A stretch of DNA of 55,624 bases from a virus. Shown in pieces: positions 35,326 to 53,245 of this stretch. The translations under genes and the position numbers were made by a program. Position 1 is the stretch's first letter. Each line of letters begins with the position of its first letter. The notes under the pieces are model-generated. The model did no database searches, had not been told where the DNA came from, and saw only the letters and a program-made list of their open reading frames with translations. The stretch lies in IMG/VR virus record IMGVR_UViG_3300049456_000112, positions 1-55,624 of that record; one strand, 5' to 3'.

Positions 35326-36642
35326 ATGGCCCAGATCAACGTCGCCAACAAAAATAACGAAAAGACCCACGAGGGCGCGCCCGCGTTCGGGCATCTGACG
35401 CCGATGCAGTCCCTGCGCCGATCGGTCATGTCCTGCCTCCTATGGGAGGACGAGTTCTACGAAGATGGGAAGACGATCGCCGATCGCATTGTCGAGACGG
35501 CGAAGGTCTGCCCGTCCGCCGATGTCGCCGCGCTCGCGATAGAGGCGCGCAAGGTCATGCACCTGCGCCATGTCCCGCTTCTTCTCCTGCGCGCCCTGGT
35601 GCGCACCGCGCCGCACCTTGTTGCGGAGACGATGCCGCGCGTGATCTCCCGCGCCGATGAGATGGGCGAGTTTCTCTCGCTCTACCTTGCGACCAACGAT
35701 GGCCGCCGGACCTTCCCGCGCCAGATGCGTCTTGGTCTCGGCCGCGCCATGGCCGGCTTCGACGAATATGCGCTCGCGAAGTACGATCGCGATGGCAAGG
35801 TGAAGCTGCGCGACGTCCTGCGCATTGCCCGGCCGAAGCCGTTTGGCCCGGAGCAGTCCGCGCTGTGGAAGCGCGCCGTCACGCGGACGCTCGCGACTCC
35901 CGACACGTGGGAGGTCGCGCTCTCTGGCGGCAAGGACAAGAAGGAGACGTTTGAGCGGCTGCTCAAGGGGCGGAAGCTCGGCTATCTCGCGCTGCTGCGC
36001 AATCTGCGCAACATGGCAGAGGCCAATGTTGACGTCGACCTGATCCGCGAGGCCATCCTGGCCCGCCGTGGCGGCGCACAGATGGTCTTCCCGTTCCGCT
36101 ATGTCGCCGCCGCGCGTGTTGCGCCGATGCACGAGCCGCAGCTCGATATCGCATTGCAGGCGGCGATTGCCGAGCTGCCGGTCCTCCCGGGCAAGACGAT
36201 TGTCCTGATCGACGTCTCCGGCTCCATGGACCATGCGATGTCCAGGAAATCGGACATGAAGCGGATCGATGCGGCGGCGGCGCTCGGGGCGATCGTCCAT
36301 GGCGACATCCGACTCTTCACGTTCTCTGATCTCCTTCGCGAGATTCCGCCACGTCACGGCATGGCCGGCGTCGATGCGATCGTGCGCTCGCAGCCGCACG
36401 GCGGCACCAACCTCGGCGCCGCCATCGCGCAAATTAACGCCAATGTGCCGGCGGATAGGCTCATCGTTGTGACCGATGAGCAGAGCCACGATGCGGTGCC
36501 GAACGCCTTCGCGAAAGGCTACATGATCAATGTTGCCAGCAACAAAAACGGTGTCGGGTACGGGAAGTGGACCCACATCGACGGCTTTTCGGAAAATGTG
36601 CTGCGCTACATCAACGAGATCGAGCGCAGCGAGGCGGCATGA
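35326..36642 (+). CDS. rsr: Ro60-family RNA-binding protein (TROVE + vWA)
   Basis: 438 residues, GGAG 7 bases before ATG 35326. The TROVE part (about 20-275) is a helical HEAT-like ring (VMHLRHVPLLLLRALVRTAP, KFGPEQ-like segments, RLLKGRKLGYLALLRNLRNM). The vWA domain (about 285-430) has the full metal site: DVSGS at 296-300, Thr361 in GGTNLGAA and Asp384 in VVTDEQ. Ro60/Rsr proteins form rings that bind Y RNAs on the outside and misfolded RNAs in the hole; in bacteria they can be tethered by Y RNA to an exoribonuclease. Four Y-RNA-like units lie directly upstream. Its stop overlaps the phosphoesterase start (ATGA), so the two proteins are made together. Length is slightly below the animal protein. 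Confidence 0.93.
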   Translation: MAQINVANKNNEKTHEGAPAFGHLTPMQSLRRSVMSCLLWEDEFYEDGKTIADRIVETAKVCPSADVAALAIEARKVMHLRHVPLLLLRALVRTAPHLVAETMPRVISRADEMGEFLSLYLATNDGRRTFPRQMRLGLGRAMAGFDEYALAKYDRDGKVKLRDVLRIARPKPFGPEQSALWKRAVTRTLATPDTWEVALSGGKDKKETFERLLKGRKLGYLALLRNLRNMAEANVDVDLIREAILARRGGAQMVFPFRYVAAARVAPMHEPQLDIALQAAIAELPVLPGKTIVLIDVSGSMDHAMSRKSDMKRIDAAAALGAIVHGDIRLFTFSDLLREIPPRHGMAGVDAIVRSQPHGGTNLGAAIAQINANVPADRLIVVTDEQSHDAVPNAFAKGYMINVASNKNGVGYGKWTHIDGFSENVLRYINEIERSEAA

Positions 36643-37301
36643 TCCGCTTCATCGGCGATGTGCATGGGAAGTTCGGCAGGTACAAAACGTTGCTTGCCGA
36701 CTCTCCCTTCCCGACCATCCAGGTCGGCGATATGGGCGTTGGCTTCCGGAAATGGCCGCACGGCGAGTGGAGCGCCAACCCGCCCTATGACCAGATGAAG
36801 GCCGGCGGCCACCGCTTCATTCGTGGCAACCACGACAATCCCGAGGTCTGCGCGATGCACTCGCAATGGATACCGGATGGCACCGTCGAGGGCGACATGA
36901 TGTTCATCGGCGGCGCGCTCTCGATCGACCGCGCCTATCGATACGAGGACTTCTCCTGGTGGCCGGATGAGGAACTGTCGCAGCAGCGCCTCGATGCGCT
37001 CGTCCATGAGTTTGCGATCGTAAGGCCCAAGATCATGGTGACTCACGAATGTCCGGAGAGCATCGCGGAGATGATCGTTGGTGACATCACCGATCTACGC
37101 GATGGCAAGAAGATGAAGATGGACCCGCGCCATGCTTCACGGACCCGGGTTGCGTTCCAGACGATGTTCGAGGCGCATCAGCCCAAGCTCTGGATATTCG
37201 GGCATTGGCATGTGCCGTTCGGCAGTGTCATAAATGGGACACGCTTCATCTGCCTGCCGGAACTCGCCCATATGGACATCGATCCGGAGCATTTGCCTTG
37301 A
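36639..37301 (+). CDS. Calcineurin-like metallophosphoesterase
   Basis: 220 residues. All metal-site motifs are present: D7-x-H9 (DVHG), D31 (VGDMG), N64-H65-D66 (GNHD), H136 (VTHE) and H189-x-H191 (GHWH). Fold and length are like phage Ser/Thr phosphatases and small phosphodiesterases; the GNHDNPEVC and WWPDEEL segments mark a distinct phage/bacterial group. Coupled to the Ro60 gene by a 4-base overlap. It may remove phosphates or open 2',3'-cyclic phosphates on RNA ends, but a protein or nucleotide substrate is equally possible. Confidence 0.9.
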   Translation: MIRFIGDVHGKFGRYKTLLADSPFPTIQVGDMGVGFRKWPHGEWSANPPYDQMKAGGHRFIRGNHDNPEVCAMHSQWIPDGTVEGDMMFIGGALSIDRAYRYEDFSWWPDEELSQQRLDALVHEFAIVRPKIMVTHECPESIAEMIVGDITDLRDGKKMKMDPRHASRTRVAFQTMFEAHQPKLWIFGHWHVPFGSVINGTRFICLPELAHMDIDPEHLP

Positions 37302-37514: not shown

Positions 37515-37784
37515 ATGCGAATTGACGAAGCCGAAAGACTGGAATTTACTGCAAATGGCCTGCAGGAAAGGGAAAACCTGATGCAATATAAATATCGTAA
37601 GAGATCGGCCTACGAGAGCATAGAGATCAAGCGAGATGCCGATGCATCAAGAAGGCGCCGCGAGGCCGCAGCGGCCCGGCCCGGCTGCAAGACGGTCAGC
37701 CCGGTCTGTAATGGGCAGGGCCACGCAGGGACCGGCTTCGTCGAAGGACGTGTCCAAAACGAGACAGCTATCGGTGTAAGATAA
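37515..37784 (+). CDS. Doubtful small basic protein overlapping the tRNA-like gene
   Basis: Up to 89 residues; the first 55 (MRIDEAERLEFTANGLQERE...) look coding, helical and charged. The last 35 run into non-coding-looking sequence and 15 bases of the tRNA-like gene. Real extent uncertain. Confidence 0.35.
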   Translation: MRIDEAERLEFTANGLQERENLMQYKYRKRSAYESIEIKRDADASRRRREAAAARPGCKTVSPVCNGQGHAGTGFVEGRVQNETAIGVR

Positions 37785-37844
37785 CGGTAGTCGGCCGGTC
37801 TCCAAAACCGTGCAGTGCAGGTTCGAATCCTGCCACCCTTGCCA
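37770..37844 (+). tRNA. tRNA-Trp-like gene (CCA anticodon) with imperfect acceptor stem
   Basis: T arm GCAGG-TTCGAAT-CCTGC (37817-37833), anticodon loop CTCCAAA with CCA in a CGGT/ACCG stem, a short D arm GAT-AACGGTA-type, and a genome-encoded GCCA end (37841-37844). The 7-base acceptor pairs at positions 1 and 4-7 but mismatches at 2 and 3. Sequence TGTCCAAAACGAGACA lies just upstream at 37751-37766. It could be a decayed or specialised tRNA. Confidence 0.65.
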
Positions 37845-37909: not shown

Positions 37910-38248
37910 CTACATCAACTCGATCAGCTTGCGCGCCCGCCCACGGTGTACCTCGCGCTGCTCCTCGGTATAGAACCGCTCATCGTCCCAGGCGCCGCCA
38001 TTGTAGGTCTCGGCCATGAACTTGGCGACGCGCTCAACATCGGCGGTCTCGCGCCCCTCCCAAAGCTTACTGAGCGCATCCGCAAGCAGGTTGCAGCGCT
38101 CGTTCGCGTCCCGATTGCGGGGCTCGCTCAGGCAGAGGAGCGCAAACTGCATGCCGCCAGGGCCGCTGAGGGTGACCCGATTGGTGTCCGGGTTGGGATG
38201 ATAGCTCAGTAATGTTTTCGTGCAGTAAAATGCTGGCAGTTTGCTCAT
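37910..38248 (-). CDS. Last gene of the sugar operon, function unknown
   Basis: 112 residues, with ATGA overlap to the synthase upstream. Soluble, alp/beta look: MSKLPAFYCTKTLLSYHPNP, GPGGMQFALLCLSEPRNRDA, then helical. No sugar-enzyme motif; the NRDANERCNLLADAL stretch resembles small phage proteins. Its co-translation with the operon is clear, its role not. Confidence 0.55.
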   Translation of the reverse strand: MSKLPAFYCTKTLLSYHPNPDTNRVTLSGPGGMQFALLCLSEPRNRDANERCNLLADALSKLWEGRETADVERVAKFMAETYNGGAWDDERFYTEEQREVHRGRARKLIELM

Positions 38249-39276
38249 GATGCGATCATCTCAAATGTCATTGGTTCGCCACGCGCGATATCGCGAGCCG
38301 CGCTCTTGCCAAGGAACATGTCAATCGCCGATGGGCGGGCGCCGTGTCCTGGCCGAATAGAGCGCACGGTCTCTTTCGTAAATACCTCGCCGGCCGCTAT
38401 GTCGGCAACGGCAAAAAGGCTCCGTCGCAGGGCTCTGTGGACATCTTCCGCAACGTGCTCTGGCGGCGGCTGCATCGCGGCCCAGGTGTCGTAAACACTC
38501 TCGGCCATGTTGGGAAATGACGTGTCATCGAGCGAGAATGCCGAGTCCTCGGTTTCCGGATGATGAAACGCGCGGAAATGCTTCTCTATAATGCAGGCAC
38601 CGAGCGCCGTGGCTGCGATCGGGATCAACGTGCCGCTGCTGTGATCGGAGAGGCCATCGATGAAGCCATACTTCACGCCGAACTTCAATCGCAAAAGGTT
38701 GGCCTCGTTGAACGGTGTCGGATAGGCCGAAACGCAGTGGAGCATGGCGTGCTGATTGAACCGGTGCGGCTCCAACGCCCGCGCGGCCTCGTTGATCTCG
38801 GCCCCGCTTGCCATGCCGGTGCTTAAAATGACCGGCACGCCGAGGCCGGCGGCATAGGCGATGAGCGGCGTATCGGTGATCTCAAAGGATGCGATCTTGA
38901 CGGCCGGCGCAGAAAGCTCGCGCATCAGATCGACCGAGGTCTCGTCGAAGACCGAGGCAAACCATGTGATGCCGACCTCTTCGGCCTTCTCCTTGATCTT
39001 CGGAAACCAGTCGAACGGCGTTTGCGTCAGGGAATAGAGTTCAAACAGGTTGCGGCCCTTCCACGGCCCCTCCCAAATGAAGAACTCGTCCCTGTCGCAA
39101 TTCAGGGTAATCGTCTCCGGCGTCACTGCCTGAAATTTAACCGCCTCGGCACCGCAGAGCTTCGCAAGCTCGATCAACTCCAATGCGCGATCGAGACTTC
39201 CGCCATGGTTACACGAGATTTCCGCGATGATGTAGGGCGGATGACGGTACCCGATCTCTCGTCCGGCGATGTTCAT
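38245..39276 (-). CDS. pseI: Nonulosonic acid synthase (PseI/NeuB family)
   Basis: 343 residues from ATG 39276, sharing a base with the upstream stop. The TIM-barrel (about 1-275) has IIAEISCNHGGSLDRALELI, AVKFQAVTPET, ILSTGMAS and IEKHF, the metal and phosphoenolpyruvate-binding motifs of NeuB-type enzymes; the C-terminal SAF antifreeze-like domain (about 285-343) has RRSLFAVADIAAGEVFTKET. Condenses a 6-carbon amino sugar with phosphoenolpyruvate to a 9-carbon acid. Residues favour the pseudaminic-acid (PseI) branch, but legionaminic acid is possible. Confidence 0.9.
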   Translation of the reverse strand: MNIAGREIGYRHPPYIIAEISCNHGGSLDRALELIELAKLCGAEAVKFQAVTPETITLNCDRDEFFIWEGPWKGRNLFELYSLTQTPFDWFPKIKEKAEEVGITWFASVFDETSVDLMRELSAPAVKIASFEITDTPLIAYAAGLGVPVILSTGMASGAEINEAARALEPHRFNQHAMLHCVSAYPTPFNEANLLRLKFGVKYGFIDGLSDHSSGTLIPIAATALGACIIEKHFRAFHHPETEDSAFSLDDTSFPNMAESVYDTWAAMQPPPEHVAEDVHRALRRSLFAVADIAAGEVFTKETVRSIRPGHGARPSAIDMFLGKSAARDIARGEPMTFEMIAS

Positions 39277-39449
39277 CAAAGCTGCTCCAGAAGAAGTTCG
39301 GCCAGACGCTTGGCCAGATGGTAGATATCGATGCTCTTGAGATCGTCCGGGACAGAGAGCATGGCCACCTTATGACCGAACGTCTTTTCCGCCTCCGGCG
39401 ACATGATGATGTTGTCCCGAGGGTCGTAAATCACATGGATTTTCGGCAT
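39276..39449 (-). CDS. 57-residue protein in the sugar operon
   Basis: Short frame MPKIHVIYDPRDNIIMSPEA... ending LAKRLAELLLEQL. It starts right after the aminotransferase stop and shares a base with the synthase start. Alpha/beta look; function unknown. Its tight fit in the operon supports it. Confidence 0.6.
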   Translation of the reverse strand: MPKIHVIYDPRDNIIMSPEAEKTFGHKVAMLSVPDDLKSIDIYHLAKRLAELLLEQL

Positions 39450-40571
39450 TCATAGCACCTCCTCCGCAGCCTTCTTGAACGCATCCCCGATCATTTTGAT
39501 CTGCGCGTCGGTCGGGCTCCAGGCGCAGTTTTCGAAATAGAAGAGCCGGTTATCATGCAGGTCCTCGGCCACAGGGCAGGCCCGCGCGTGCTTCTTGAAC
39601 GGCGCATTGCGATAGAGCGGCGCCTGATATCCTTCGACAATCGGCACGCCGGCCGCGCGCAGGTTCGCGCAGAAGAATCGGCGTCGCTTCTCAATCAGGA
39701 ACGGGATGGTGTAATACACGTGCGTGCAGCCCCGTTTGACAATCGGCGGGCGGATGCCGGGGATGTCGCCGATCGCCGAGATGATGGCCTCGGCCTGCGC
39801 AATGCGCCCGTTGATGATCTCCCGGCCGCGAGAAAGCTGAACCAGAGCAATCGCCGCGCAGACCTCTGGCATGCGCAGGTTCAATCCAAGCTCGCCGCCG
39901 ATCTCGCCGTGGTTGATGAAGTCTCGCATGGCCATGGCGAGATGCTCATCGTCCGTCGTTATCATCCCGCCTTCGCCGCACTGGATCGGCTTGTGCACAT
40001 TGAGCGACCAGACGCCGATCGTGCCCATGGTACCGACATGGCGGCCATGGGCCATGGCAAACGGCGACTGCGCATTGTCCTCGATCAGATAGACCGGGTT
40101 GCGGCGGCCCAAGCTCCATTCATTTCTGCCGAGATCGCAGGGATGGCCGAACAGGTTGGTGCTAAAAATCGCCCGCGTGCTCTCCGGCATTGGCGGGCAG
40201 ACGAGGCCGAACGTCTCATCTTCGACATCGACGAAGAATGGCGTCGCCTTCGTAAACATCGGCGCGGCAGCCGTGGCGCTCATGGTCATCGCGGAGACGG
40301 CAAATCTGTCGCCGAATCCGAGATCGATGGCAAAGGCGGCGGCCAGGAGGCCCGAGGTTGCGCTATTGCAGGCGATGGCGTGCGCCACATCGAAGGTTTC
40401 GCACCAAGCAGATTCGAGCGCGCGTACATATGTGCCGCCATCGAATTTGCCGGCGAGATAGCCGGAGAGCGGGGCATGGCCGCTGGTACACATCGCCAAG
40501 GCGGTAAGGTTGCCGACCATATTCCGCTCTTCAAGGCCGATTCCATTGAACGGCAGGATTGGCCCCATCAT
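39450..40571 (-). CDS. DegT/DnrJ/EryC1-type sugar aminotransferase (PseC-like)
   Basis: 373 residues from ATG 40571 (or the next codon). Fold-type I PLP enzyme: substrate part with CNSATSGLLAAAFAIDLGFG, the ligand VYLIEDNAQS, and Lys194 in NVHKPIQCGEGGMI, the usual PLP-lysine position of the DegT family. It would add an amino group to a 4-keto sugar made by the dehydratase. Tail half resembles the family. It abuts the small gene downstream. Confidence 0.88.
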   Translation of the reverse strand: MMGPILPFNGIGLEERNMVGNLTALAMCTSGHAPLSGYLAGKFDGGTYVRALESAWCETFDVAHAIACNSATSGLLAAAFAIDLGFGDRFAVSAMTMSATAAAPMFTKATPFFVDVEDETFGLVCPPMPESTRAIFSTNLFGHPCDLGRNEWSLGRRNPVYLIEDNAQSPFAMAHGRHVGTMGTIGVWSLNVHKPIQCGEGGMITTDDEHLAMAMRDFINHGEIGGELGLNLRMPEVCAAIALVQLSRGREIINGRIAQAEAIISAIGDIPGIRPPIVKRGCTHVYYTIPFLIEKRRRFFCANLRAAGVPIVEGYQAPLYRNAPFKKHARACPVAEDLHDNRLFYFENCAWSPTDAQIKMIGDAFKKAAEEVL

Positions 40572-40747
40572 TTCAGCACACAGAAAGCACGTATTTTGCT
40601 GTCTGAGATTTCCCATGCCCTTGCCTGCGCACGCATGACATCCGCCGCCTTCTCGCAGCGATCGACGCTTGTAAATTCCGTCACCGAGATGATGGGGCCG
40701 GACACGTACCCGCCCATCCAGGTCATCACGAATAGGACCGCAATCAT
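40568..40747 (-). CDS. Small exported or membrane-anchored protein
   Basis: 59 residues; N-terminal hydrophobic stretch MIAVLFVMTWMGGYVSGPII could be a signal anchor, followed by a soluble part with two Cys (VDRCEKAAD and FCVLK). Overlaps by 4 bases with the acetyltransferase and by 1-4 bases with the aminotransferase. Function unknown. Confidence 0.55.
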   Translation of the reverse strand: MIAVLFVMTWMGGYVSGPIISVTEFTSVDRCEKAADVMRAQARAWEISDSKIRAFCVLK

Positions 40748-41199
40748 GGTGCTGCTTCCTTGCGATAGTAGACAAACTGGTCGTCGCCGCCGGGCATCCT
40801 ACGGAAGCCGCAGCGCTCAAACACTCGGCGCGAGGGATCGTTGTGCGTTCTAATGGTCGCCTTCAGGGTAAACTCCGACATCAGCGCGCAGGCATCGTCC
40901 AAAATGGTCGCCGCGAGTCCCTTGCCGCGCCATCGCGGCGCGAGCGTTATGGAGACCTCGTAAACCATGACATCATCCCGCGCCGCGTCGAAGCGGACGA
41001 CGCCATAATTGCCGTAATCGCTCTCGGCAATGAGGACCCGGTGCTGCGGGTAGCCGTTCTGGACGTTGAACTGCATCCAATGGTCATGGTTTTCGCGCAG
41101 GACAGGAAGCGTGCTTCTAAACGCCGCCCGTGTCACCGGATCGTTGCGCCAGGAGAAAAGCTCGTCGGAATCGCGCATGGTGGCAGGACGGAGCTGCAT
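40744..41199 (-). CDS. GNAT acetyltransferase (PseH/RimJ-like)
   Basis: 151 residues. GNAT fold: MQLRPATMRDSDELFSWRND start (the PseH/RimJ type), coenzyme-A loop APRWRGKGLAATIL, and a later NDPSRRVFERCGFRRM. In a nonulosonate pathway it would N-acetylate the amino sugar. The start shares a base with the upstream stop. Confidence 0.85.
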   Translation of the reverse strand: MQLRPATMRDSDELFSWRNDPVTRAAFRSTLPVLRENHDHWMQFNVQNGYPQHRVLIAESDYGNYGVVRFDAARDDVMVYEVSITLAPRWRGKGLAATILDDACALMSEFTLKATIRTHNDPSRRVFERCGFRRMPGGDDQFVYYRKEAAP

Positions 41200-41870
41200 C
41201 AGCGGACAATGCTCCGCATGGTCATGAAGGCCTCGGCGGCATGGACGCCGCAGGCAAAACCGCGCGATTCCATGAGTGCGGTGACCGCATCATAGCATCG
41301 GGCGTGCGGCCGACGGCGCATCTCGGTATCGTAGCATTGCAGGGCCTCGAATTTCTTTCCGCGCGCCGTCTTTTCACCGGCCATAACATCGATGTCCACG
41401 AAGTGGTTCGGCACAAAGCCGCAGCCCCATTCGGTCGAGGACAGAACCTCAAAGGCATAGATCGCCTTGACGGCGCTCCCTGGCAGCGGCCGGAACGCGG
41501 TCATCACGGCGCGGTTGACGATCTGGTGATCGAGATTGAGATCGCCGGCATGGTGGGTATAGACGATTGTCGGGATGACCGAGAGGGCATGCAGCTCGAT
41601 CAGTTTGGTGATGTCCAAGAGTGCGAGCTGGTCCAACCTTTGGTCACTAAAATCGAGAAAGACCGGCGGCTTGGCGCCGAGCAGCTTAGCCGCCTCGTAT
41701 GCCATGAAATTCCGGTTCGGCCGCGCCTTCATGCCGCGCGCGGTCTCGCCATCGGCGACGAAGAGCAGATGCACGTCATCACCCTCGGCGACATGCCGGG
41801 CGATGGTGCCGCCGCAGCCGAGAACCTCGTCATCTGGGTGGGCGGCAACGATAAGGACGCGCTCGGTCAT
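41199..41870 (-). CDS. PIG-L-family deacetylase
   Basis: 223 residues from ATG 41870. HPDDE at 11-15 (zinc ligands) and YTHHAGDLNLDHQ later are the PIG-L signature. Such enzymes remove acetyl groups from sugar amines. In a pathway with two acetyltransferases this suggests a re-tailored N-acyl group, for example acetyl exchanged for another group. Coupled to its neighbours by short overlaps. Confidence 0.88.
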   Translation of the reverse strand: MTERVLIVAAHPDDEVLGCGGTIARHVAEGDDVHLLFVADGETARGMKARPNRNFMAYEAAKLLGAKPPVFLDFSDQRLDQLALLDITKLIELHALSVIPTIVYTHHAGDLNLDHQIVNRAVMTAFRPLPGSAVKAIYAFEVLSSTEWGCGFVPNHFVDIDVMAGEKTARGKKFEALQCYDTEMRRRPHARCYDAVTALMESRGFACGVHAAEAFMTMRSIVR

Positions 41871-42064
41871 TGCCTCGGTCCCCCCAGGAAATGCCGCGAC
41901 AGCTTCCCTAGGTAATAGAGGGCGATCAGACCGATACCAAAGGCAAGCCAGCCATAAGGCGCCGTCCAGATGTAGCCGATCGCGAAAGATGCGATGACCA
42001 GACCGACGATGATGCCACATCCATCGGCGTCGACCTCGCTCCCTTCGTCTCTCTCATCGCTCAC
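41867..42064 (-). CDS. Small membrane protein in the sugar operon
   Basis: 65 residues: acidic N-terminus, then two close hydrophobic stretches (GIIVGLVIASFAIGYIW and WLAFGIGLIALYYL). Overlaps both neighbours by 4 bases. Topology only; function unknown. Confidence 0.6.
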   Translation of the reverse strand: MSDERDEGSEVDADGCGIIVGLVIASFAIGYIWTAPYGWLAFGIGLIALYYLGKLSRHFLGGPRQ

Positions 42065-42945
42065 ACCCGCTCCTCCACGTAATATCGTCGTACCATGATC
42101 TCCTCCACCCTTTCCGGTGCCACGAACGGCAGGCCCAAGGAGAGTCGGATCGTCGCATCCAGGATGTCGAACCCGGCCATTACCGTGAACATGCAGCTTC
42201 CGCTCAATCGGGGGTTTAGCTCGATGACGAAGAGATCGCCGGTCTCGCGCTCCCTGATGACCTGGATGTTGATCGGCCCCCGGAAAGCAAACAATTTAAC
42301 AATTTGTTTTGCAAGGTCGATGATTTCCTCGTCCATGGATACCTGTCCAATAATGGACACCCCCTTGGCCGCGATTCGCATGCGCGGCACCGCGAACAGG
42401 AAGCCGCCGCCCATGTCGGTAAGGACATCGACGGTGTATTCCATCCCGTCGATGAACTCCTGAACGAGGTAATTGCCGCTCTCGCGCAGCCGGATCGCGG
42501 TCATCGCGTCCCTGGTCCGGAAAATGCCTTTGCCGCCGCGCCCAAACTCCGGCTTCACGATCAGGTCGCCGTCGATGGTCGCGCGGGGCACGGTGATGTC
42601 ATGCTCGCGCAGGATACGATGCTGGACAATCTTGTTCGTGAAGTCGCTGAGCGCCCCTTGCCTTGAGCAGATGGTCTTGTCCGGGATGCCATAGCTTGGA
42701 TTTGCGAAAATCCGCAGCTCCTCGTCGAGAAACGGCAGGTAGAGATCATAATCGATCGTCTGAAGATAATTGGAGTAGCGCCAGGACTCTTCGACCGGCG
42801 GCGATTGATAGAACACGTTGCATATGCGCGCTCCCGCGCCGTGCTTCTGCCGATCATGCCCGATCACGTAATGCCCGAGCTTCTGCAAATGCCGGATGAT
42901 GCCCGGCGCCACGGCGCTGCCGGCCGCTGACATCATGATGCGCAT
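42061..42945 (-). CDS. ATP-grasp enzyme (carbamoyl-phosphate-synthase-like)
   Basis: 294 residues. A pre-ATP-grasp Rossmann part (MRIMMSAAGSAVAPGIIRHL) and the ATP-grasp core with DLIVKPEFGRGGKGIFR, LVQEFIDGMEYTVDVL and metal-binding VIELNPRLSGS. Joins a carboxylate to an amine or similar nucleophile. Such enzymes occur in surface-sugar clusters and could attach an amino-acid-like group to the sugar. A TGTCCA-N4-TGGACA palindrome (42344-42359) falls inside it. Confidence 0.85.
   Translation of the reverse strand: MRIMMSAAGSAVAPGIIRHLQKLGHYVIGHDRQKHGAGARICNVFYQSPPVEESWRYSNYLQTIDYDLYLPFLDEELRIFANPSYGIPDKTICSRQGALSDFTNKIVQHRILREHDITVPRATIDGDLIVKPEFGRGGKGIFRTRDAMTAIRLRESGNYLVQEFIDGMEYTVDVLTDMGGGFLFAVPRMRIAAKGVSIIGQVSMDEEIIDLAKQIVKLFAFRGPINIQVIRERETGDLFVIELNPRLSGSCMFTVMAGFDILDATIRLSLGLPFVAPERVEEIMVRRYYVEERV
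42344..42359. promoter_or_regulatory. 16-bp palindrome TGTCCA-N4-TGGACA (copy 3, inside a gene)
   Basis: TGTCCA-ATAA-TGGACA with perfect arms in the ATP-grasp coding region. The same palindrome at 34265 and 34721 makes chance less likely, although the coding frame may constrain it. Confidence 0.4.
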
Positions 42946-43792
42946 AGGATCGCCTTCAGCTCGTCAACCGACATGCGCCGAGCCTTGTCGCTGCTATTTC
43001 CCTCGGCCATGCTCTCGTGCAGCTTCTCCCACGCCGGGAGTCCGATGATCTTCATCTTGACCCCCATGGCATCGGCGAGATCGCCGAGACGATAGGCCGG
43101 GAGCGTCGGGATGATGGTCTCGCCGCCGAACATGCCATAGGTGGTCTCCGATACCAGGGAGACGGCCTCAGCCATCGTCATGTAGAAGCGCGTGCACTCC
43201 GGATCGGTTACCGGAACCATGGCGCCTCCGGCGAGCATCTTGCGCCACGTCGGGACCACCGAGCCGGTGCTATTCCAGACATTCCCATAGCGGACGACCG
43301 CAAAGATCGGACCGTTGTTGCCGCGCGTGTTGTTGGCGGCCAGGAAGAGCGACTCAGCAAACGCCTTGCTCGTCCCGTAGGGGCTGACCGGCTGGAACGC
43401 CTTGTCGGACGAGAGCGCGACGACCCTGCCGACGCCGGCATCGGTTGCGGCCTCGATCACGTTGGCGGCGCCGTCGATGTTGGTCTTCTTGACCTCAAGC
43501 GGGTTGTAGGCGCCGACCTCTATCCGCTTCAGCGCGGCGGCGTGAATGACAACGCCGATGCCCTCCATGGCCCGGCGCAGGCGATCCCGATCGCGGACGT
43601 CGCCGATAAAGAAGCGAAGCCGAGGATCATTGCCGAGTTCGCGCGCCATCTCGGCCTGCCTATGCTCGCCTCTGGAAAAGATAACGACTCGGGTGCCGAG
43701 GTTGCTCTGCAGCAGAAACTTGGCATATGCCGTACCGAACGCGCCAGAGCCACCCGTGATCAGGACCGAGCCGTAGGTCCCATCGCACTTGA

Positions 43793-43796
<4 letters not shown>
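42933..43796 (-). CDS. Sugar-nucleotide dehydratase/epimerase (PseB/CapD-like)
   Basis: 287 residues. Extended SDR: NAD-binding TGGSGAFG at about 14-21, ALKRIE, active-site region SSDKAFQPVSPYGTSKA with the Tyr and Lys of YxxxK. It resembles PseB-type UDP-GlcNAc 4,6-dehydratases (5-inverting) and CapD soluble domains. First step of the pathway: removes water and inverts the sugar. Overlaps the ATP-grasp gene by 13 bases. Confidence 0.87.
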
Positions 43797-45789
<1,993 letters not shown>

Positions 45790-45793
<4 letters not shown>

Positions 45794-46638
45794 AGACCGG
45801 CCTTCTTTCTGACATCGAGCAAAAGGGAGAGCGTTGCGAGGCCGTCCTGGCCGCTCGCGCCATGCGCCCCCTTGCCCTCGGTGCGATCGATGAATGCGCG
45901 CATCTCGGCGAAGTAGTCGTCGTCATAACTGCCGCCATATCGCCATGTGCTAACGGCACCTTCGCGGTAAAAACTGGTTATCAATCGACTCGGCAGATCG
46001 ACCAGAGTGTTGCCGCCATCCCGGCCAACCCAGAACTGACGAACCTCAACCGGTGTGATGAAGTCGAGATGGAATGATGAGCGCACGCCGCTCTCATGCT
46101 GCAGGACGAAGTCCGCGCTGGTGTCATAGGCGGTTGTCGCGGCCACAACGGACGCCGGCCCGAACAGATACAGGGCGAGATCAACCTCGTGTGAGCCCGT
46201 GTTCAGGATGACGCCATCGCCGAGAATGCCGGGCTTGGTTGTCGTCGTCGCGCATATGAAGTGAGCCCACAGCGTTGTTGATACCGATCTTTTCACTTCC
46301 GCGATGCAGGGATGAAAGCGCAGGTTGTTGCCCATCATGATGACGAGCTTCTTCTCCTCGGCCGCCTTGAGCAGGGCAGGAAGCATGCCGATCGAGGTCG
46401 AGATCGGCTTTTCAATCAGGGCATGTTTGCCGCGCTCTATGCAGGCGCGCAGCGGCCCCTCGTGATACGGCGACGGCGTCGCGATCACCACGGCATCGCA
46501 CATGTCATAGATCAGGCGCTCCAAACCGACATCGCGGCGCAGCAACGGGTCATAAACCAGCACATCATGGCTGAGCTTCAGCGCATTCGCCGCGTGGCGC
46601 TGCCCGATCGAGCCGTATCCGACGACGCCGATCTTCAT
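45790..46638 (-). CDS. Gfo/Idh/MocA-family oxidoreductase
   Basis: 282 residues from ATG 46638. NAD(P)-binding MKIGVVGYGSIGQRHAANAL, then ALIEKPISTS with the catalytic-type EKP lysine, and a later NTGSHEVDLALYLFG, are family signatures. Acts on a sugar keto or hydroxyl group. It lies upstream of the fusion, joined by 4-base overlap. Confidence 0.88.
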
Positions 46639-47243
46639 GGGACAAGCTCTATCGCGTGCGCAGGCCGGCTCTTCTTCAGCACCGTCACCATGGCATCCCC
46701 TGCGATGACGCGGGTCACGACAAAGTAAAGCGGGTTGCCGAGCCATAGCTTGCTGAAGTCGACGTGGTAGGACAGCACCCCGTCGCAGTGCTCATAGCGC
46801 CGGGCAAACGGCTTCCCGCTCTCGCCGAAGTCATGGATGATGAGATATCCGCCCGGCTTCAGCACGCGGTCGCCCTCGGCGGCGATCTGGAGCCAGTCTT
46901 CGGGGTCGGTCAAATAGAGGCAAAAGCCATAGATGACGAGGTCGAATGCTGCTTTGAGCAGCGGGAGAACTGCCGCTGTGGCATTGATGGTCCGGATGCC
47001 ATCACAGGACGCCGCCGTGCGAGCCTCAAGGCTCGGCTCTATGCCGGTAACCTCGCAGCCATATTTCTCGCGCAGCCGCCCCAATCGCCAGCCATTGGCG
47101 CAGCCGATTTCGAGCACGTTCTTCGGCGTGATCTTGGCATTCTCGATGACTCCGGAGACCAGATCGCGCTCGCCGAGCCGATCGCAGTTCCTGGCAAACC
47201 AAGCGTCGCCCTCGGAAGCAAGGAAGATATGCTTCTGCATCAT
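46635..47243 (-). CDS. SAM-dependent methyltransferase
   Basis: 202 residues from ATG 47243. Class I motifs: motif I VLEIGCANGWRLGRL (about 45-59), GIEPS acidic loop, VIYGFCLYL motif IV, and LKPGGYLIIHDF. Likely O- or N-methylates the sugar. Part of the coupled operon. Confidence 0.87.
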   Translation of the reverse strand: MMQKHIFLASEGDAWFARNCDRLGERDLVSGVIENAKITPKNVLEIGCANGWRLGRLREKYGCEVTGIEPSLEARTAASCDGIRTINATAAVLPLLKAAFDLVIYGFCLYLTDPEDWLQIAAEGDRVLKPGGYLIIHDFGESGKPFARRYEHCDGVLSYHVDFSKLWLGNPLYFVVTRVIAGDAMVTVLKKSRPAHAIELVP

Positions 47244-47422
47244 CGCCTCGCCAGAATGTCCATCCAATCGGAAACATCACGATCGTTCTGCGTGATCTGC
47301 GCCAGAACCTGCCTTGTTTCGCTCGGGGCGTGGAGGAGCGCGATCTCCATCAGCCGCTTCCACGGGCTATTGTTCGCGACGCGGATTTTGAAGATTTCGT
47401 TAACAATGTCCTGGTCCGTCAT
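47240..47422 (-). CDS. Small helical protein in the sugar operon
   Basis: 60 residues (MTDQDIVNEIFKIRVANNSP, then helices with Trp). No motif recalls an enzyme. Overlaps on both sides (4 bases). Could be an acyl-carrier-like or structural helper, but it has no carrier-type Ser motif. Function unknown. Confidence 0.55.
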   Translation of the reverse strand: MTDQDIVNEIFKIRVANNSPWKRLMEIALLHAPSETRQVLAQITQNDRDVSDWMDILARR

Positions 47423-47928
47423 CGCGTCCTCCCGAAGAGCAGCGCCGACACCGGCCCGCCCTTGCCCATGAAATGATTCAGAAGCTCGCCCTCCTGCTTA
47501 AATCCCGAGCCATGGATGATCTTGATCATCGCGAGATTGGTGCGCATGGCGCCGGCCTCCAGCTTCCTGACGCCGCCGGCATGGAGCATGTGCTCGCACG
47601 CCGCCTTCCATGCCTCGGAAGCGAGGCCTTTGCCCCAGTATCGCGTCTCGCCGATCATGATGCCCATGTTGGCGACGCCATTTGGCTCGTCGACCGTGGC
47701 GCTGACGTTGCCGATATAGTCGTTGTCATTGATGTGCCAGATCGCCCAGATATGCGACCGGCCCTTAAAACTATCGACATAACGCAATTGCGTGGAGAGC
47801 GTGTGCTCCCGATGCCGCTGCTCCGAGAATTGCACCACATCGGGATCGCGCAGCCAGGACAGGTTGCGCGGCGATGGCTTGCGCAGCGGCCGGAGGGTAA
47901 GCCGCGCGGTCGGGATCGTCGGGGTCAT
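47419..47928 (-). CDS. GNAT acetyltransferase (second)
   Basis: 169 residues from ATG 47928. RimJ/RimL-type GNAT: TARLTLRPLRKPSPRNLSWL, GIMIGETRYWGKGLASEAW coenzyme-A loop, and AMRTNLAMIKIIHGSGFKQE. Two GNATs in one operon suit a di-N-acylated sugar. Coupled to its neighbours. Confidence 0.87.
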   Translation of the reverse strand: MTPTIPTARLTLRPLRKPSPRNLSWLRDPDVVQFSEQRHREHTLSTQLRYVDSFKGRSHIWAIWHINDNDYIGNVSATVDEPNGVANMGIMIGETRYWGKGLASEAWKAACEHMLHAGGVRKLEAGAMRTNLAMIKIIHGSGFKQEGELLNHFMGKGGPVSALLFGRTR

Positions 47929-48119
47929 TTGGTCGCCTTCACAAACCGGTCGCACCAGAATGCCGGGTCGATCGCACCCATCACCACCTCGCAGGTGCCG
48001 TAATGGCCAGTCCCCGGTATGAAATGCCGGCAGTATGACTTGTCATCGTGGAAGATTGGGCCGCAATGCGAGTGCAGCATGCCCTTCGAATAGGTGACGT
48101 CCTCCTTGCTGTCCTTCAC
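47925..48119 (-). CDS. Small Cys-rich protein
   Basis: 64 residues from GTG 48119 (GAGGA upstream). Cysteines in HSHCGPIF, SYCRHFIPG, GTCEVV and WCDRFV form the four-Cys pattern of small phage proteins that resemble high-potential iron-sulfur or zinc domains. It may bind a metal. Function in the sugar operon unclear. Confidence 0.6.
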   Translation of the reverse strand: MKDSKEDVTYSKGMLHSHCGPIFHDDKSYCRHFIPGTGHYGTCEVVMGAIDPAFWCDRFVKATK

Positions 48120-48283
48120 GGCTTCCTCATCCGCTCCAGCAGGTGATCGATGAGCTGCAGGACCGCCTCCGACGTTGCCCGATTCCATGAGGCGCCGCCG
48201 CCGAAGTCGCCGGCACGCCGCATCGGCTCCATGGTCTCGGCGATGAAGGCTTTGCGCAGCTCGACCAGTTCGTCCCGGTTCAT
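48116..48283 (-). CDS. 55-residue helical protein
   Basis: MNRDELVELRKAFIAETMEP... ; two charged helices with a Gly-rich turn (GDFGGGASW). ATGA/GTGA overlaps on both sides. Function unknown. Confidence 0.55.
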   Translation of the reverse strand: MNRDELVELRKAFIAETMEPMRRAGDFGGGASWNRATSEAVLQLIDHLLERMRKP

Positions 48284-48432
48284 GTGCTCCTCGCGGTTAC
48301 ATACTCATCGAGCGCCGAGCCGATGATGGTAGCGATCGAGATGCGATCGACGCGGGCGATCTGATTGATCGCGGCCCTGGTGCTCGGCCTGAGATTGATG
48401 CGGGTGGTCCAGGTAATGCGCGGCTCGCTCAT
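48280..48432 (-). CDS. Ribbon-helix-helix regulator, first gene of the sugar operon
   Basis: 50 residues: a beta-strand-like RITWTTRINLRPSTRAAI followed by two helices, the MetJ/Arc-type plan. As the first gene of the 18-gene operon it is probably its own regulator. Promoters should lie in the 88-base gap 48433-48520 before the divergent + strand gene. Confidence 0.7.
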   Translation of the reverse strand: MSEPRITWTTRINLRPSTRAAINQIARVDRISIATIIGSALDEYVTARST

Positions 48433-48520: not shown

Positions 48521-48844
48521 ATGTCCGAAGTCAGGCACATCGTCCCGCGCCAGGGTGGCGAACTCAGGCCCTACAAGACGCCTGATGAGCATTGGCGGGA
48601 GGTGACCGAAGAAATCTATGGCAGCGCCGAACTGCCGGAGACGACCCAGCACATGCACGATCCGGAATGGGATCGCCGGCTCCTGAGCATCCAGAACGCC
48701 AACGATCAGACCAACGCGATCTTCGCGGCATTCGGGATGGTGCCGAGGAGCACTCGGCCGATGCGGGTTGGTTTCTGGTCGGTCATCGCCGTGCTGTTCG
48801 TCGCATCCGAAGCGATGTGGTTCGGGTTCCGGGTGCCGCGATGA
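48521..48844 (+). CDS. Small protein before the terminase, one C-terminal membrane segment
   Basis: 107 residues from ATG 48521. Soluble and charged start (MSEVRHIVPRQGGELRPYKT), then one hydrophobic C-terminal helix (VGFWSVIAVLFVASEAMWFG). Stop overlaps the terminase start. Possibly a head-region accessory protein. Function unknown. Confidence 0.55.
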   Translation: MSEVRHIVPRQGGELRPYKTPDEHWREVTEEIYGSAELPETTQHMHDPEWDRRLLSIQNANDQTNAIFAAFGMVPRSTRPMRVGFWSVIAVLFVASEAMWFGFRVPR

Positions 48845-50559
48845 CCCATCAGGCCCTCATCCGCGTTCTCGGCGCCGCGCGGCGGATCAAGGAGATTCAG
48901 GACGCCGAACGGCTTGAGGCCAGTTTTTACGAATTTTTCAGAGATGCGTGGCCGCAGTTCGATCCGGCCGACTTCGTCGACAACTGGCACCTGGAGGACA
49001 TCTGCAATCACATGGAGGCGGTGGCGCGCGGCTACATCCCGCGCCTCCTCCTGAACGAGCCGCCACGGACCGGCAAGACCGCGATCATCTCGATCTGCTT
49101 CTGCGCGTGGGTCTGGGCGCAACGGGAGCGCGGGCCATTGATGGGGCCCCAGGTCGCGTTCTTCTATGCCAGCTACGCGGAGGCGCTCTCGCTGGAGCAC
49201 TCGGTCAAATGCGCGCGGCTCATTCAGTCGCAATGGTACCAGCGCCGCTGGGGCCACAGGTTTAAGCTCCTCCGCGTCACGCAGGGCCAGATCGAGAACG
49301 ATCGCGGCGGTTATCGCATGTGCTCCTCGGTCGACGCCAAGGCGGCCGGCTTCGGTGCCGACATCCTGATCGCCGACGACCCGCATCTCGTCAAGGAGGC
49401 GGAATCGGAGGATGTCCGCGAGGGGACCGTGCGTTGGTGGTCGGAAACCATGCCGAGCCGACTCAACAACCGCAAAACTGGCGCCATGATCGTCGTCATG
49501 CAGCGGGTGCACGAAGGCGATCTGGCCGGCGATATCCTTCGCCGCGATGCCCTGGCGCGGAAGGCGGGCAAGCCGGCGAACTATGTCCACTTCTGCGTGC
49601 CCATGTCCTACGTGCCGTGTCAGCACGTCAATGCGTGGGTCGGCGATCATATTGAGACATTCATCGGCGATGATATCGAAACCATCGATGAGGGCGATGT
49701 TTTCTGGGCCGATGGCAGGAGCGAGGACGGCGATCTGCTATGGCCCGATCGTTTCCCGGCGAGCGAAGTTGTGAAGCTGGAGCAGGAGCTGGGTCCCTAC
49801 GCCTATGCCGGCCAATACCAGCAGGAGCCGGCCCCGCGCGGCGGCGGCGTCATCCGAAGAGAGTGGTGGCGCACATGGGACGAGAAGACGGCCGAAGAGC
49901 ACGACACCATATTCGAGGAGGTGAAGGACGAGTTCACCGGCAAGGTGCGGAAGAAGGAGACCTATCCCGGATTCGAATACATCATCGCCGCGTTCGACGG
50001 CGCGTTCACCGAGGATGAAGAGAACGATCCATCCGCGCTCTCGATCTGGGGCATCTTCCGGGATCGGAAGGGCAACCCCAAGATTTTTCTGATCTATTGC
50101 TGGGCCGAGTGGATGCGGATCAACGATGTTGTGACCCGCGTCGGTGCCGACTGCAAGAAGTTCAAGGTCGACAGGCTGATCATCGAAGACAAGGCGTCGG
50201 GTCACTCGGTCGGCCAGGAGCTGGCCCGGCTCTTTGGCATGTTCGACTTCGGCATAGAGCTGATCAACCCGAGGACCGGATTTATTAAGTCACCCGACAA
50301 GGTGGCCCGGCTTCTGACCGTGGTTCACCTGTTCGCCGAGGGTCTCGTCTATGCCCCGGACAAGGAATGGGCCGACGACATGATCACCCAGTGCGCCACG
50401 GTGCCGCGCGCCGTTCATGACGATCTGGCCGACACCTGTAGCATGGCGCTCATCTATCTGCGGCGTGCCGGCTGGGCCGTCCGGAAGGAGGAGCGGGCGC
50501 TCGAAATCGCCGATGAGACCAAATATCGGCCTCGGCGGGGTGCATTGTATCCGGTTTAG
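48841..50559 (+). CDS. Terminase large subunit
   Basis: 572 residues from ATG 48841. ATPase: Walker A NEPPRTGKT (residues 72-80), Walker B DILIADD (174-180). RNase H-like nuclease: IAAFDGAF with Asp386 as first ligand, then LIIEDKASG and a late DDLADT. It drives DNA packaging into the head and cuts the DNA. The small subunit gene lies 19 kb upstream. Confidence 0.94.
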   Translation: MTHQALIRVLGAARRIKEIQDAERLEASFYEFFRDAWPQFDPADFVDNWHLEDICNHMEAVARGYIPRLLLNEPPRTGKTAIISICFCAWVWAQRERGPLMGPQVAFFYASYAEALSLEHSVKCARLIQSQWYQRRWGHRFKLLRVTQGQIENDRGGYRMCSSVDAKAAGFGADILIADDPHLVKEAESEDVREGTVRWWSETMPSRLNNRKTGAMIVVMQRVHEGDLAGDILRRDALARKAGKPANYVHFCVPMSYVPCQHVNAWVGDHIETFIGDDIETIDEGDVFWADGRSEDGDLLWPDRFPASEVVKLEQELGPYAYAGQYQQEPAPRGGGVIRREWWRTWDEKTAEEHDTIFEEVKDEFTGKVRKKETYPGFEYIIAAFDGAFTEDEENDPSALSIWGIFRDRKGNPKIFLIYCWAEWMRINDVVTRVGADCKKFKVDRLIIEDKASGHSVGQELARLFGMFDFGIELINPRTGFIKSPDKVARLLTVVHLFAEGLVYAPDKEWADDMITQCATVPRAVHDDLADTCSMALIYLRRAGWAVRKEERALEIADETKYRPRRGALYPV

Positions 50560-50599
50560 GGCCATGATATGACCGATCGTTCAATATTTGGAAGGCCGC

Positions 50600-53245
50600 A
50601 TGGCCGCGCCCCTCTCCCTTCGCCTGATTGACCCGTCCGAAACCCAGGACGAGCTTAAGCCTGCGGAGATCAATCTCGACGAAGGAAGCAGCAGCTCCGT
50701 CACCATCGATGATGACGGCACGGCTCGGATTGAGCATGCCGATGGCAGCGTTTCCTTCCGCGATGGCGCAGAGGCCGGCGATCCGGATGAGGACGATTTC
50801 TATCACAACATCGCCGATCAGGTCGGCGACGAAGAGCTTGGCCGCATCGCCTCCGATCTGCTGACCGGGATTGAGCTGGACCAGCAATCACGCAAGGATT
50901 GGATGGAGGCGAGGGCAACCGGCATCCGTCTCTTGGGCCTTAAGCTTGAGGAGCCGCGCGGCGATCTCGGCACATCATCGGCGCCATTGGAGGGCATGTC
51001 GACGGTGCGCCATCCGCTTCTCCTGGAGGCGACGATCCACTTTCAGGCCAACGCGCTCGGCGAGCTTTTGCCCGCGTCCGGCCCGGTCAAGGTCCGCAAC
51101 GATCTGCCGATGCGGCCCGACATGCCGCAGCAGCCGCCTTCGCCGCCAGTTCCTGGCGCCCCGCCGGAGGGGCAGGCGATGGATGATCTCGGCTCGGCGC
51201 TCGAAAAGGACATGAACCATTATCTGACGGTGACCGCCACGGAGTTCGTGCCGGATACCGACCGTATGATGTTCTACATCGGCTTCGGCGGCGATGGATT
51301 TAAGAAGGTCTACAACTGCCCACTGCGGCGTCGCCCGGTCTCCGAGTCCGTGGATGCCGAGGACATCATCGTCAGCAATTCTGCGACCGACATCAGAAAC
51401 TGCGGCCGGGTGACCCATCGCATCAAGATGCGGCCGTCCGTGATCAAGCGGATGCAGATCGACGGCTACTATCGCGACGTCAAGCTGGGGCAACCCAATC
51501 CTGCGATGCATGTCACCGCGCCCGAGCAGGAGAAGGCCGAGATCGGCGGCTACAAGCCACGACCGCAACAGCCCAAGGATGCCGAGTACGAAGTCTTTGA
51601 GGTCTATTGCGAGCTTGATCTCGACAAATTCGCGCCAGAGAAGTTCAAGGGCAAGGAGTTGCCGCTTCCCTTTGTTGTCACCCTTGAAAAGGAGAGCCGA
51701 CAGGTCCTTTCGATCCGTCGCAACTGGGATGAAGACGACGAGCAGGCGCTCGCGAAGCATTTCTTCGTCCAGTTTCCGTTCATCCGTGGCCTCGGCTTCT
51801 ATGGCATCGGCCTCCTGCACATCCTCGGCAACATCACGATGGCGCTGACCGCGATCGTGCGCATCATGATCGACAACGGGATGTTTGCGAACTTCCCGGG
51901 CTTCCTGTTCGCCAAGGGCGCGGGCCGGCAGAACACCAACCAGTTCCGCATCCCCCCCGGCGGCGGCATGCCGGTCGATGTGCCGCCGAGCATGCGCATC
52001 CAGGATGCGTTCATGCCGCTTCCGTACAAGGAAACCGGTGCCGCCTTCATTAACATGTTCACGCACCTGGAGGAGGGCGGCCAACGCCTCGGGCAAACGG
52101 CAGAGCTGAACATCGGCGAGGGCAAGCAGGACGTCCCGGTCGGGACGACGATGGCGCTGATCGAGCAGGCCACCAAGATCATGGATTCCGTGCACAAAAG
52201 ATTGCACGCCGCGCAGGCGCAGGAGTTCGGCCTTCTGAAGGAGCGATTTAAGGAGGACCCGGAGGCGTTCTGGCGCCACAACAAGAAGGGGCATCGCCCG
52301 GCACGGCAATGGACCGTCGATCAATTTAAGCAGGCATTGGAGGAGCGCGATCTGGTCCCGGTGGCCGATCCGAACAATCCGACGAGCCTGCACCGGATCG
52401 CGAAGGCGACCATTGTTGACACGCTCGTGCAGAAATATCCGCTCGACATCGACAAGCGCGCCGCCCTGAAGCGAATCATGCGGATCGCCGACATCGACTC
52501 CGATGGCCTGATGACGCCGCAGACCGGGCAGCCGCCGCCTGACCCGCGCATGGAGGCGATCAAGGCCAAGGCCGCCGCCGAGCAGATGAAGGCGCAGATC
52601 GATCAGGCCAAGGTTCAAATTCAGGCGCAGACCGCGCAGATGAATTTCCAGGACAAGGAAAAGGAGCGCCAGTTCAAGCATGCGATGCAGCAATACGAGC
52701 TGCAGCTTGAGCAGATGCGGGTGCAGGCCGAGATGATCATCCACGCGCACGATCTGAAGCGCGACGATACGCAGGCGCAGCACGAGATGGGCATGAAGCA
52801 GGCCGAAACCGCGCATGGCATCATGTCCGATCAGGCAAGCAATCAAATGGGCATTCAGCATGATGCACAGAAGCATCAGCTCGAAATCGTCGCCAGCGCC
52901 CATAAGAACCAGCAGGAGATCGCCGCGCAGCGTCAGAAGCACGAGCAGACCCTGCAGGCGCAAAGAGAACAGCATGCCCAGCAGATCGAGCTGGAGCGCG
53001 AGAAGCATCAGGCCGCGCTGGAAAACCAGAAGCAGATCGCGGAGGCGAAGGCCAAGGCGATCGGCCCGGCCGAAGAGAAGCGCGTGGGTATGGAAGCCGA
53101 AAAGCATAAGCAACAGATGCAGCTCGACGCCGAGACGCATAAGCGCGAAGGCGAGACGCACAAGGCCGAGCTGCAGAACAGCAAGGTTCTGACACAGGCG
53201 AAGGCCAAGGCGATGAACAAGCCGAAGCCGGCAGGAGACAAGTGA
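50600..53245 (+). CDS. Portal protein with long coiled-coil tail
   Basis: 881 residues (GGAAGG before ATG 50600). The middle (about 130-560) has portal features: TSSAPLEGMSTVRHPLLLEA, FGGDGFKKVYNCPLRRRPVS, and a membrane-like but portal-typical VRIMIDNGMFANFPGFLFAK; it is of the podovirus/P22-like type. The last ~220 residues (about 655-875) are a Gln/Glu/Lys/Ala/His-rich coiled coil with repeated QHAQQ- and KHQ-like units, much longer than in common portals. The portal is the DNA gate at one vertex of the head. Confidence 0.85.
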   Translation: MAAPLSLRLIDPSETQDELKPAEINLDEGSSSSVTIDDDGTARIEHADGSVSFRDGAEAGDPDEDDFYHNIADQVGDEELGRIASDLLTGIELDQQSRKDWMEARATGIRLLGLKLEEPRGDLGTSSAPLEGMSTVRHPLLLEATIHFQANALGELLPASGPVKVRNDLPMRPDMPQQPPSPPVPGAPPEGQAMDDLGSALEKDMNHYLTVTATEFVPDTDRMMFYIGFGGDGFKKVYNCPLRRRPVSESVDAEDIIVSNSATDIRNCGRVTHRIKMRPSVIKRMQIDGYYRDVKLGQPNPAMHVTAPEQEKAEIGGYKPRPQQPKDAEYEVFEVYCELDLDKFAPEKFKGKELPLPFVVTLEKESRQVLSIRRNWDEDDEQALAKHFFVQFPFIRGLGFYGIGLLHILGNITMALTAIVRIMIDNGMFANFPGFLFAKGAGRQNTNQFRIPPGGGMPVDVPPSMRIQDAFMPLPYKETGAAFINMFTHLEEGGQRLGQTAELNIGEGKQDVPVGTTMALIEQATKIMDSVHKRLHAAQAQEFGLLKERFKEDPEAFWRHNKKGHRPARQWTVDQFKQALEERDLVPVADPNNPTSLHRIAKATIVDTLVQKYPLDIDKRAALKRIMRIADIDSDGLMTPQTGQPPPDPRMEAIKAKAAAEQMKAQIDQAKVQIQAQTAQMNFQDKEKERQFKHAMQQYELQLEQMRVQAEMIIHAHDLKRDDTQAQHEMGMKQAETAHGIMSDQASNQMGIQHDAQKHQLEIVASAHKNQQEIAAQRQKHEQTLQAQREQHAQQIELEREKHQAALENQKQIAEAKAKAIGPAEEKRVGMEAEKHKQQMQLDAETHKREGETHKAELQNSKVLTQAKAKAMNKPKPAGDK

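Follow-up and report, generated by a model that had tools for sequence, protein, structure and literature searches.

The stretch considered here, hereafter the window, is a virus record from IMG/VR, 55,624 bases long, its positions counted from the first letter, and on its minus strand lies a run of 18 open reading frames (ORFs), from an ATG at 48432 to 37910, which form an operon resembling bacterial pathways for nonulosonates (NulOs), sugars of the sialic-acid type. That these genes are a fully coupled operon had been proposed from the sequence alone, and verification of the ORFs upholds the proposal: 17 of 17 junctions overlap or abut (14 overlap by 4 bases, one by 13, and one by 1), the single abutting junction, from the DegT gene to a gene of 57 amino acids (aa), leaving no gap. 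The first gene (48280-48432; 50 aa) had been called an RHH (ribbon-helix-helix) regulator; it is RHH-like by eye and, judged from its sequence, a possible regulator with 37-59% identity in several relatives, but it has no Pfam match at E ≤ 0.1. Two further small genes follow, one of 55 aa (48116-48283) that is present in most close relatives and one of 64 aa with a GTG start (47925-48119) that is 42-62% identical in close relatives. Then come GNAT acetyltransferase 1 (47419-47928; PF13302, 3e-19), a 60-aa gene (47240-47422), a class I methyltransferase (46635-47243; PF08241, 6e-14), a Gfo/Idh/MocA oxidoreductase (45790-46638; PF01408, 2.5e-15), a 666-aa enzyme in which an SpsF-type cytidylyltransferase is fused to a class III aminotransferase of the glutamate-1-semialdehyde type (43793-45793; PF02348, 4.8e-25; PF00202, 2.9e-39), and a PseB/FlaA1-like UDP-GlcNAc 4,6-dehydratase (42933-43796; PF02719, 2.8e-72). 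The distal part encodes an ATP-grasp ligase (42061-42945; PF15632, 1.3e-20; PF02655, 1.2e-15), a 65-aa protein with a hydrophobic stretch by eye (41867-42064), a PIG-L/LmbE deacetylase (41199-41870; PF02585, 9.6e-25), the weakly PseH-like GNAT acetyltransferase 2 (40744-41199; PF13302, 1e-15), a 59-aa protein (40568-40747) recognized, like the 65-aa one, by ORF and coupling only, a DegT/DnrJ sugar aminotransferase (39450-40571; PF01041, 4.2e-53), the coupled 57-aa protein (39276-39449; 67% identity in the relative L116), a PseI/NeuB nonulosonate synthase with a SAF domain (38245-39279; PF03102, 1.7e-66), and a last protein of 112 aa (37910-38248) that belongs by coupling, has no Pfam match, and was not seen in relatives. 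The sequence-only reading had missed the oxidoreductase, the methyltransferase, the ATP-grasp ligase, and the fusion of cytidylyltransferase and aminotransferase.

The enzymes differ in how closely they follow the models of known pathways. The synthase passes the PseI cut-off (TIGR03586, 357.8 bits against 340.25) and has a PseI structure, 8h2c, as its nearest (E 1.2e-67). The dehydratase has PseB as its best NCBIfam match and 2gn4 as its nearest solved structure (E 1.4e-72), yet at 306.5 bits it falls under the cut-off of 407.75 (TIGR03589), and by sequence it is a PseB/FlaA1 relative rather than a PseB equivalog. Likewise the DegT aminotransferase reaches 123 of 423.5 bits against the PseC model and is under the LegC cut-off as well, and GNAT 2 scores 30.5 bits against a PseH cut-off of 93.1 (TIGR03585), so that the PseB, PseC, and PseH models are the top matches for their proteins yet all remain under their cut-offs; the Gfo/Idh/MocA oxidoreductase matches the NCBIfam UDP-GlcNAc 3-dehydrogenase, also under its cut-off. 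In the broader sense of a NulO pathway, a NeuB-family synthase (PF03102) and a cytidylyltransferase domain (PF02348) stand within one operon. The nonulosonate-type reading is accordingly sustained by the PseI score, the PseB-like dehydratase, the cytidylyltransferase domain, and the occurrence of the same fusion in bacterial PseB/PseI clusters. Its description as a complete pathway does not survive: a PseG-type hydrolase was found in 0 of 24 records, some of them fragments, with control genomes positive, and without PseG the word is too strong. With PseG lacking and several equivalog cut-offs not reached, the operon is not filed by its sequences as a pseudaminic acid (Pse) pathway.

Conservation and origin

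The operon had been placed between the terminase subunits, and loosely this is so, with TerS at 29391-29930 and the terminase large subunit (TerL; PF03237/PF17289) at 48841-50559 on the plus strand, although TROVE, phosphoesterase, and tRNA genes also lie between them. TerL, the divergent flank of the operon in relatives, is followed on the plus strand by an SU10-like portal gene (50588-53245; PF23899, 3.6e-13), a conserved flank. The best GenBank matches to this TerL reach only about 35% identity, and close relatives of the phage are therefore not in GenBank; TerL relatives at 59-78% identity were retrieved and their flanks read, and operon genes are divergent from TerL in every close one with enough upstream sequence. 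Scanning with a fusion-enzyme alignment brought in many further viral contigs, and a set of 33 comprises the IMG/VR contigs in which TerL, the fusion, the PseB-like gene, and the DegT gene all fall within the fetched stretch, a few of them being near-duplicates. In all 33 the block from GNAT 1 to PseI is divergent from TerL and portal, with TerL identity to the window falling to about 37%. GNAT 1, the oxidoreductase, and the DegT gene are present in 33 of 33, the methyltransferase in 31, a PseI-like gene in 29, and the conserved 60-aa gene in 20, and the fusion and the dehydratase likewise belong to the core; the keeping of these enzymes in the same place excludes chance. The operon belongs to the syntenic core of a phage lineage and is not a stray host island. 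Given that GNAT 2 occurs in only 6 of the 33 contigs, and the ATP-grasp ligase and the PIG-L deacetylase in 3 each, the window presents a rich version of a leaner core. Some relatives have an extra gene of 163-170 aa at the operon start (L009:9005-9502, L022:7746-8258, L025:8089-8580). Others carry further tailoring genes (L002:7768-8640 and L015:3516-4331; an RmlD-like reductase by eye and a second methyltransferase), which suggests that the sugar differs between phages.

In four close relatives the operon ends in a compact NeuB/PseI homologue of 214-226 aa without a SAF domain, which replaces the full synthase (L008:1597-2241, L009:1266-1913, L015:1587-2249, L016:208-888; partial in L025). 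In alignment it retains the two metal-binding histidines of NeuB, and its AlphaFold model (pLDDT 76, residues 140-172 poor) best matches Campylobacter jejuni PseI, with an E of 6e-13. These compact forms, together with the missing PseG and the several enzymes under Pse and Leg cut-offs, are what might be expected if the operon made not a nonulosonate but some other amino sugar, or a product of nucleotide type such as might serve DNA modification. Such a product is quite improbable in light of the full-length window PseI above its cut-off, the best match of even the compact form to PseI/NeuB, and the finding that bacteria carry this fused enzyme too, in clusters that include PseB and PseI.

Bacterial fusion enzymes, at 34-52% identity, lie in nonulosonate-type clusters with PseB, DegT, and PseI genes and without phage flanks. 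In a tree of 86 fusion enzymes (quick search, midpoint root) the 41 viral sequences form one side of a branch with an SH-aLRT of 100, beside alphaproteobacterial sequences, and this single viral clade is most simply explained by a single uptake of the gene and its subsequent inheritance among phages. As to the host, the nearness of the fusion enzyme to alphaproteobacterial ones is only a hint; neither the 12 bacterial genomes that carry the fusion nor 397 genomes of Rhizobiales yielded a prophage of this phage family. Among GenBank phages there is no close relative of PseI (3 weak matches) or, when 80% length coverage is required, of the fusion, and many GenBank phage matches to these queries look like host sequence. 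Bacterial clusters with the same enzyme types exist, and one might suppose that a single phage had lately picked up a host island by chance, or that a host contig had been misbinned as viral; the sequence-only reading had itself allowed that the operon would count as host DNA if it lay with the same flanks in a host chromosome and was absent from phages. What was found is the reverse, a core block in phages with phage TerL or portal at 0 of 80 bacterial loci. With a single viral clade, a fixed position beside TerL and portal across wide TerL divergence, and a GC content of 60.6% in the operon and 60.3% in the whole window, an origin of this kind retains a negligible probability, and the recent host island was rejected on the 33-contig synteny and the single viral fusion clade.

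The surroundings of the operon have features of their own. A tRNA-Trp (CCA) gene (37770-37844) lies 65 bases past the last operon gene, and no tRNA genes were found in five relatives scanned. Also just past the operon's end, a TROVE/Ro60-like protein with a vWA domain (35326-36642) adjoins a metallophosphoesterase-like gene (36639-37301), and a Ro60-like gene adjoins the operon in the relative L026 too. Elsewhere the window encodes a RecT-like protein, CI-like and Crp-like regulators, a DnaB/Toprim replication gene, a DUF932 protein in the early region (27932-28804; PF06067, 1.8e-37), a large serine integrase (10470-12176; phrog_95), and a second serine resolvase-type gene (33600-34262). From the large integrase and the CI-like repressor the phage looks temperate.

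A transferase-like protein in the capsid cluster

One sub-threshold Maf/MptE Pfam match led to a transferase-like protein of 282-357 aa that is 50-77% conserved among operon-bearing phages; in every member whose sequence extends that far, its gene has the major capsid gene (phrog_371) on one side and the head-tail adaptor region on the other. In the relative G003 its ATG comes immediately after a virion structural gene (phrog_3758). The neighbouring virion proteins p118 and p330 are rich in Ser and Thr (31% and 27% combined). AlphaFold, given 48 sequences, models a core with pLDDT above 90 and a long C-terminal helix. In a Foldseek search of the PDB, places 1-12 all go to GT42 sialyltransferases, for the most part CstII (best E 7e-6), and VIA-align gives Z scores of 11.0 for CstII 1ro7 (root-mean-square deviation 3.4 over 152 residues) and 10.6 each for Cst-I and Maf 5mu5, the GT42-like Rossmann-type fold spanning residues 55-223. 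At the level of sequence the 48 members yield no GT42 Pfam match at E ≤ 0.1, PHROGs does not recognize the protein and no curated family matches it, an alignment profile finds only weak matches among solved structures (E 0.57 or above), and a viral structure library returns mainly uncharacterised phage proteins; a conserved S..., A.A, G...I.L.GID....Y motif aligns, at a weak E, with a solved sialyltransferase. The protein is thus not a GT42 member by sequence, and its predicted structure has the GT42 fold. Thiamin pyrophosphokinase and archaeal HPPK/MptE match as well, at Z 8.9-10.1, so close to GT42 that the fold alone does not settle function. Their scores, the long C-terminal helix, and the want of a curated family would all suit a structural or scaffold protein or some other nucleotide-dependent enzyme with a pyrophosphokinase-like Rossmann fold, only indirectly linked to the operon. 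The uniform GT42 ranks in Foldseek, the placing of the weak sialyltransferase match on the conserved motif, and the way the protein tracks NulO genes in both of two phage groups and is lacking wherever those genes are, make a role outside glycosyl transfer unlikely.

That tracking deserves closer description. The transferase-like protein occurs in 18 of 21 operon-bearing records, and the three without it are short contigs, namely the window (55.6 kb) and contigs of 46 and 61 kb. In about 20 contigs that span the interval from capsid to adaptor, sister phages sharing the capsid at 60-63% carry no copy there, and 12 such viral records together with the complete circular 61-kb MW202675 lack both the transferase-like protein and the fusion enzyme, G003 serving as the positive control; in G461 (capsid 66%) the same search found a partial transferase-like copy at the record end. 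Many sister records are fragmentary, so that the case for the operon being absent depends mostly on MW202675 and three records 57-62 kb long, and since the phages are related the pairing counts are not independent events. In a second phage group, whose fetched stretches hold no detectable relative of the capsid protein, a transferase homologue of about 41% identity lies some 2-9 kb from PseB-like, SpsF-like, and PseI-like genes (L255, L263), or near PseI only (L266). The protein is absent from 12 of 12 bacterial genomes that carry the fusion, 3 of which have true Maf genes. Of 397 Rhizobiales genomes, 3 have a match, and the two loci read (L273:1474-2343, L274:1321-2091) place distant homologues beside capsid genes; going by these sequences, genes of this family may turn up repeatedly in the capsid clusters of unrelated prophages.

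For the window itself the gene is predicted from relatives. Window genes at 1308-2761 correspond to 39.5-40.9 kb of G003, and the window's right end to about 65.8-66.2 kb; the roughly 24 kb of G003 between them, which hold capsid, transferase-like, and tail genes, are missing from the window. G003 appears complete, as a methyltransferase gene runs across its record ends, and by this comparison the window most likely lost a stretch of about 24 kb in assembly.

Proposed particle decoration and known counterparts

Going by its sequences, the operon would act as a nonulosonate pathway that has its own transferase. Dehydratase, DegT aminotransferase, and GNAT would yield a 2,4-diamino-trideoxyhexose, which PseI would condense with phosphoenolpyruvate, and the SpsF domain would then add cytidine monophosphate (CMP); the missing PseG step would be supplied by the host or by an unrecognised enzyme. 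The oxidoreductase, class III aminotransferase, methyltransferase, deacetylase, and ATP-grasp ligase would tailor the sugar, with the first two perhaps adding a further amino group that GNAT and methyltransferase may then cap. The CMP-sugar would be used by the phage protein of GT42-sialyltransferase/Maf fold from the capsid cluster, and the proteins most likely to receive the sugar are those of the virion encoded in this cluster. The position of the transferase-fold gene and its tight pairing with the operon favour the virion over the host surface. Our leaning, a modest one, is that a phage-resident CMP-nonulosonate pathway feeds a phage transferase that decorates the virion, the operon itself being an old component of one phage lineage, passed on by vertical descent. 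Several observations weigh against this: PseG is missing, some relatives have a compact synthase, other nucleotide-dependent enzymes share the fold, GT42 models find no match, the window lacks the transferase-like gene, and closeness to capsid genes need not mean action on capsids. The stronger proposal, that the whole phage family is self-sufficient in sialic-acid-type particle decoration, having acquired operon and GT42-fold transferase at about the same time and kept both since, is more tentative, with the balance tipping slightly away from it.

The most serious competitor is host-surface conversion, in which the CMP-nonulosonate would be put on host lipopolysaccharide, capsule, or flagellin in the course of infection or lysogeny and would block superinfection or alter recognition. 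A phage that looks temperate would be suited to this, CstII acts on lipooligosaccharide and Maf on flagellin, and the operon is oriented opposite to the late genes. Yet the transferase-like gene sits in the late capsid cluster of all members reaching it, which fits late expression, and a GT2-family transferase was found in 0 of 21 records. Further, resolvase-type recombinases occur in only 8 of these 21 (tyrosine integrases were not searched), so that serine-integrase lysogeny is not a constant trait, unlike the operon. We give host-surface conversion a real but clearly lesser chance.

If virion decoration is correct, a little-known phage family may coat its own particles (or, on the alternative, its host) with a sialic-acid-like sugar, and the two loci would constitute a defined, testable system for virion sialylation. 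It would also raise the question of why a phage should spend some 11 kb on one sugar, the benefit perhaps residing in adsorption, recognition, or particle stability. The model further points to a role for an unannotated family of phage proteins encoded beside capsid genes. Searches of the open-access literature returned no account of a phage lineage in which a core nonulosonate pathway is paired with a sialyltransferase-fold protein of the capsid cluster.

Known systems share parts of this arrangement. The CMP-Pse pathway of Campylobacter and Helicobacter likewise has PseI, here above its cut-off, with a PseB-like dehydratase, a DegT aminotransferase, a PseH-like GNAT, and a cytidylyltransferase domain, whereas the phage operon lacks PseG, fuses an SpsF-type cytidylyltransferase to a class III aminotransferase, is phage-encoded, and adds Gfo/Idh, methyltransferase, PIG-L, and ATP-grasp genes. 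The sps system of Bacillus subtilis, in which we know of no class III aminotransferase fusion, differs in also using SpsG and SpsM and in serving a bacterial spore rather than a virion. Like the phage operon, it combines an SpsE-type synthase, an SpsF-type cytidylyltransferase, an aminotransferase, and an acetyltransferase, and the legionaminic acid it makes for the spore crust is a sugar coating a particle, as is proposed for the phage (PMC7439481). Alphaproteobacterial NulO clusters (e.g., Magnetospirillum; L033, L035, L080) carry the same fusion (49-52% identity) close to PseB-like, Gfo, and PseI genes, but no phage flanks, and 12 such genomes lack the phage transferase. GT42 (CstII) and Maf (5MU5) share the Rossmann-type fold of residues 55-223 with the transferase-like protein, which differs in having no family-level sequence match, a long C-terminal helix, and a location in the capsid cluster. 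Phages are known to glycosylate their virions and to carry sugar genes, and the lipopolysaccharide gene clusters of cyanophage P-SSM2, as here, bring many sugar genes together in one phage; to our knowledge they are not paired with a capsid-cluster transferase. In flagellin and spore systems, nonulosonate-type pathways serve to decorate surface proteins or particles (PMC13317340, PMC7439481). Finally, in mycobacteriophages Che8, Corndog, and Myrna, capsid and tail proteins are reported to be glycosylated by the phages' own transferases (PMC12363180, citing Freeman et al. 2023); a phage-encoded transferase is common to both cases, but there glycosylation was observed and here it is predicted from genes and fold, and the present lineage brings to it a whole nonulosonate-type pathway and a candidate transferase of sialyltransferase fold.

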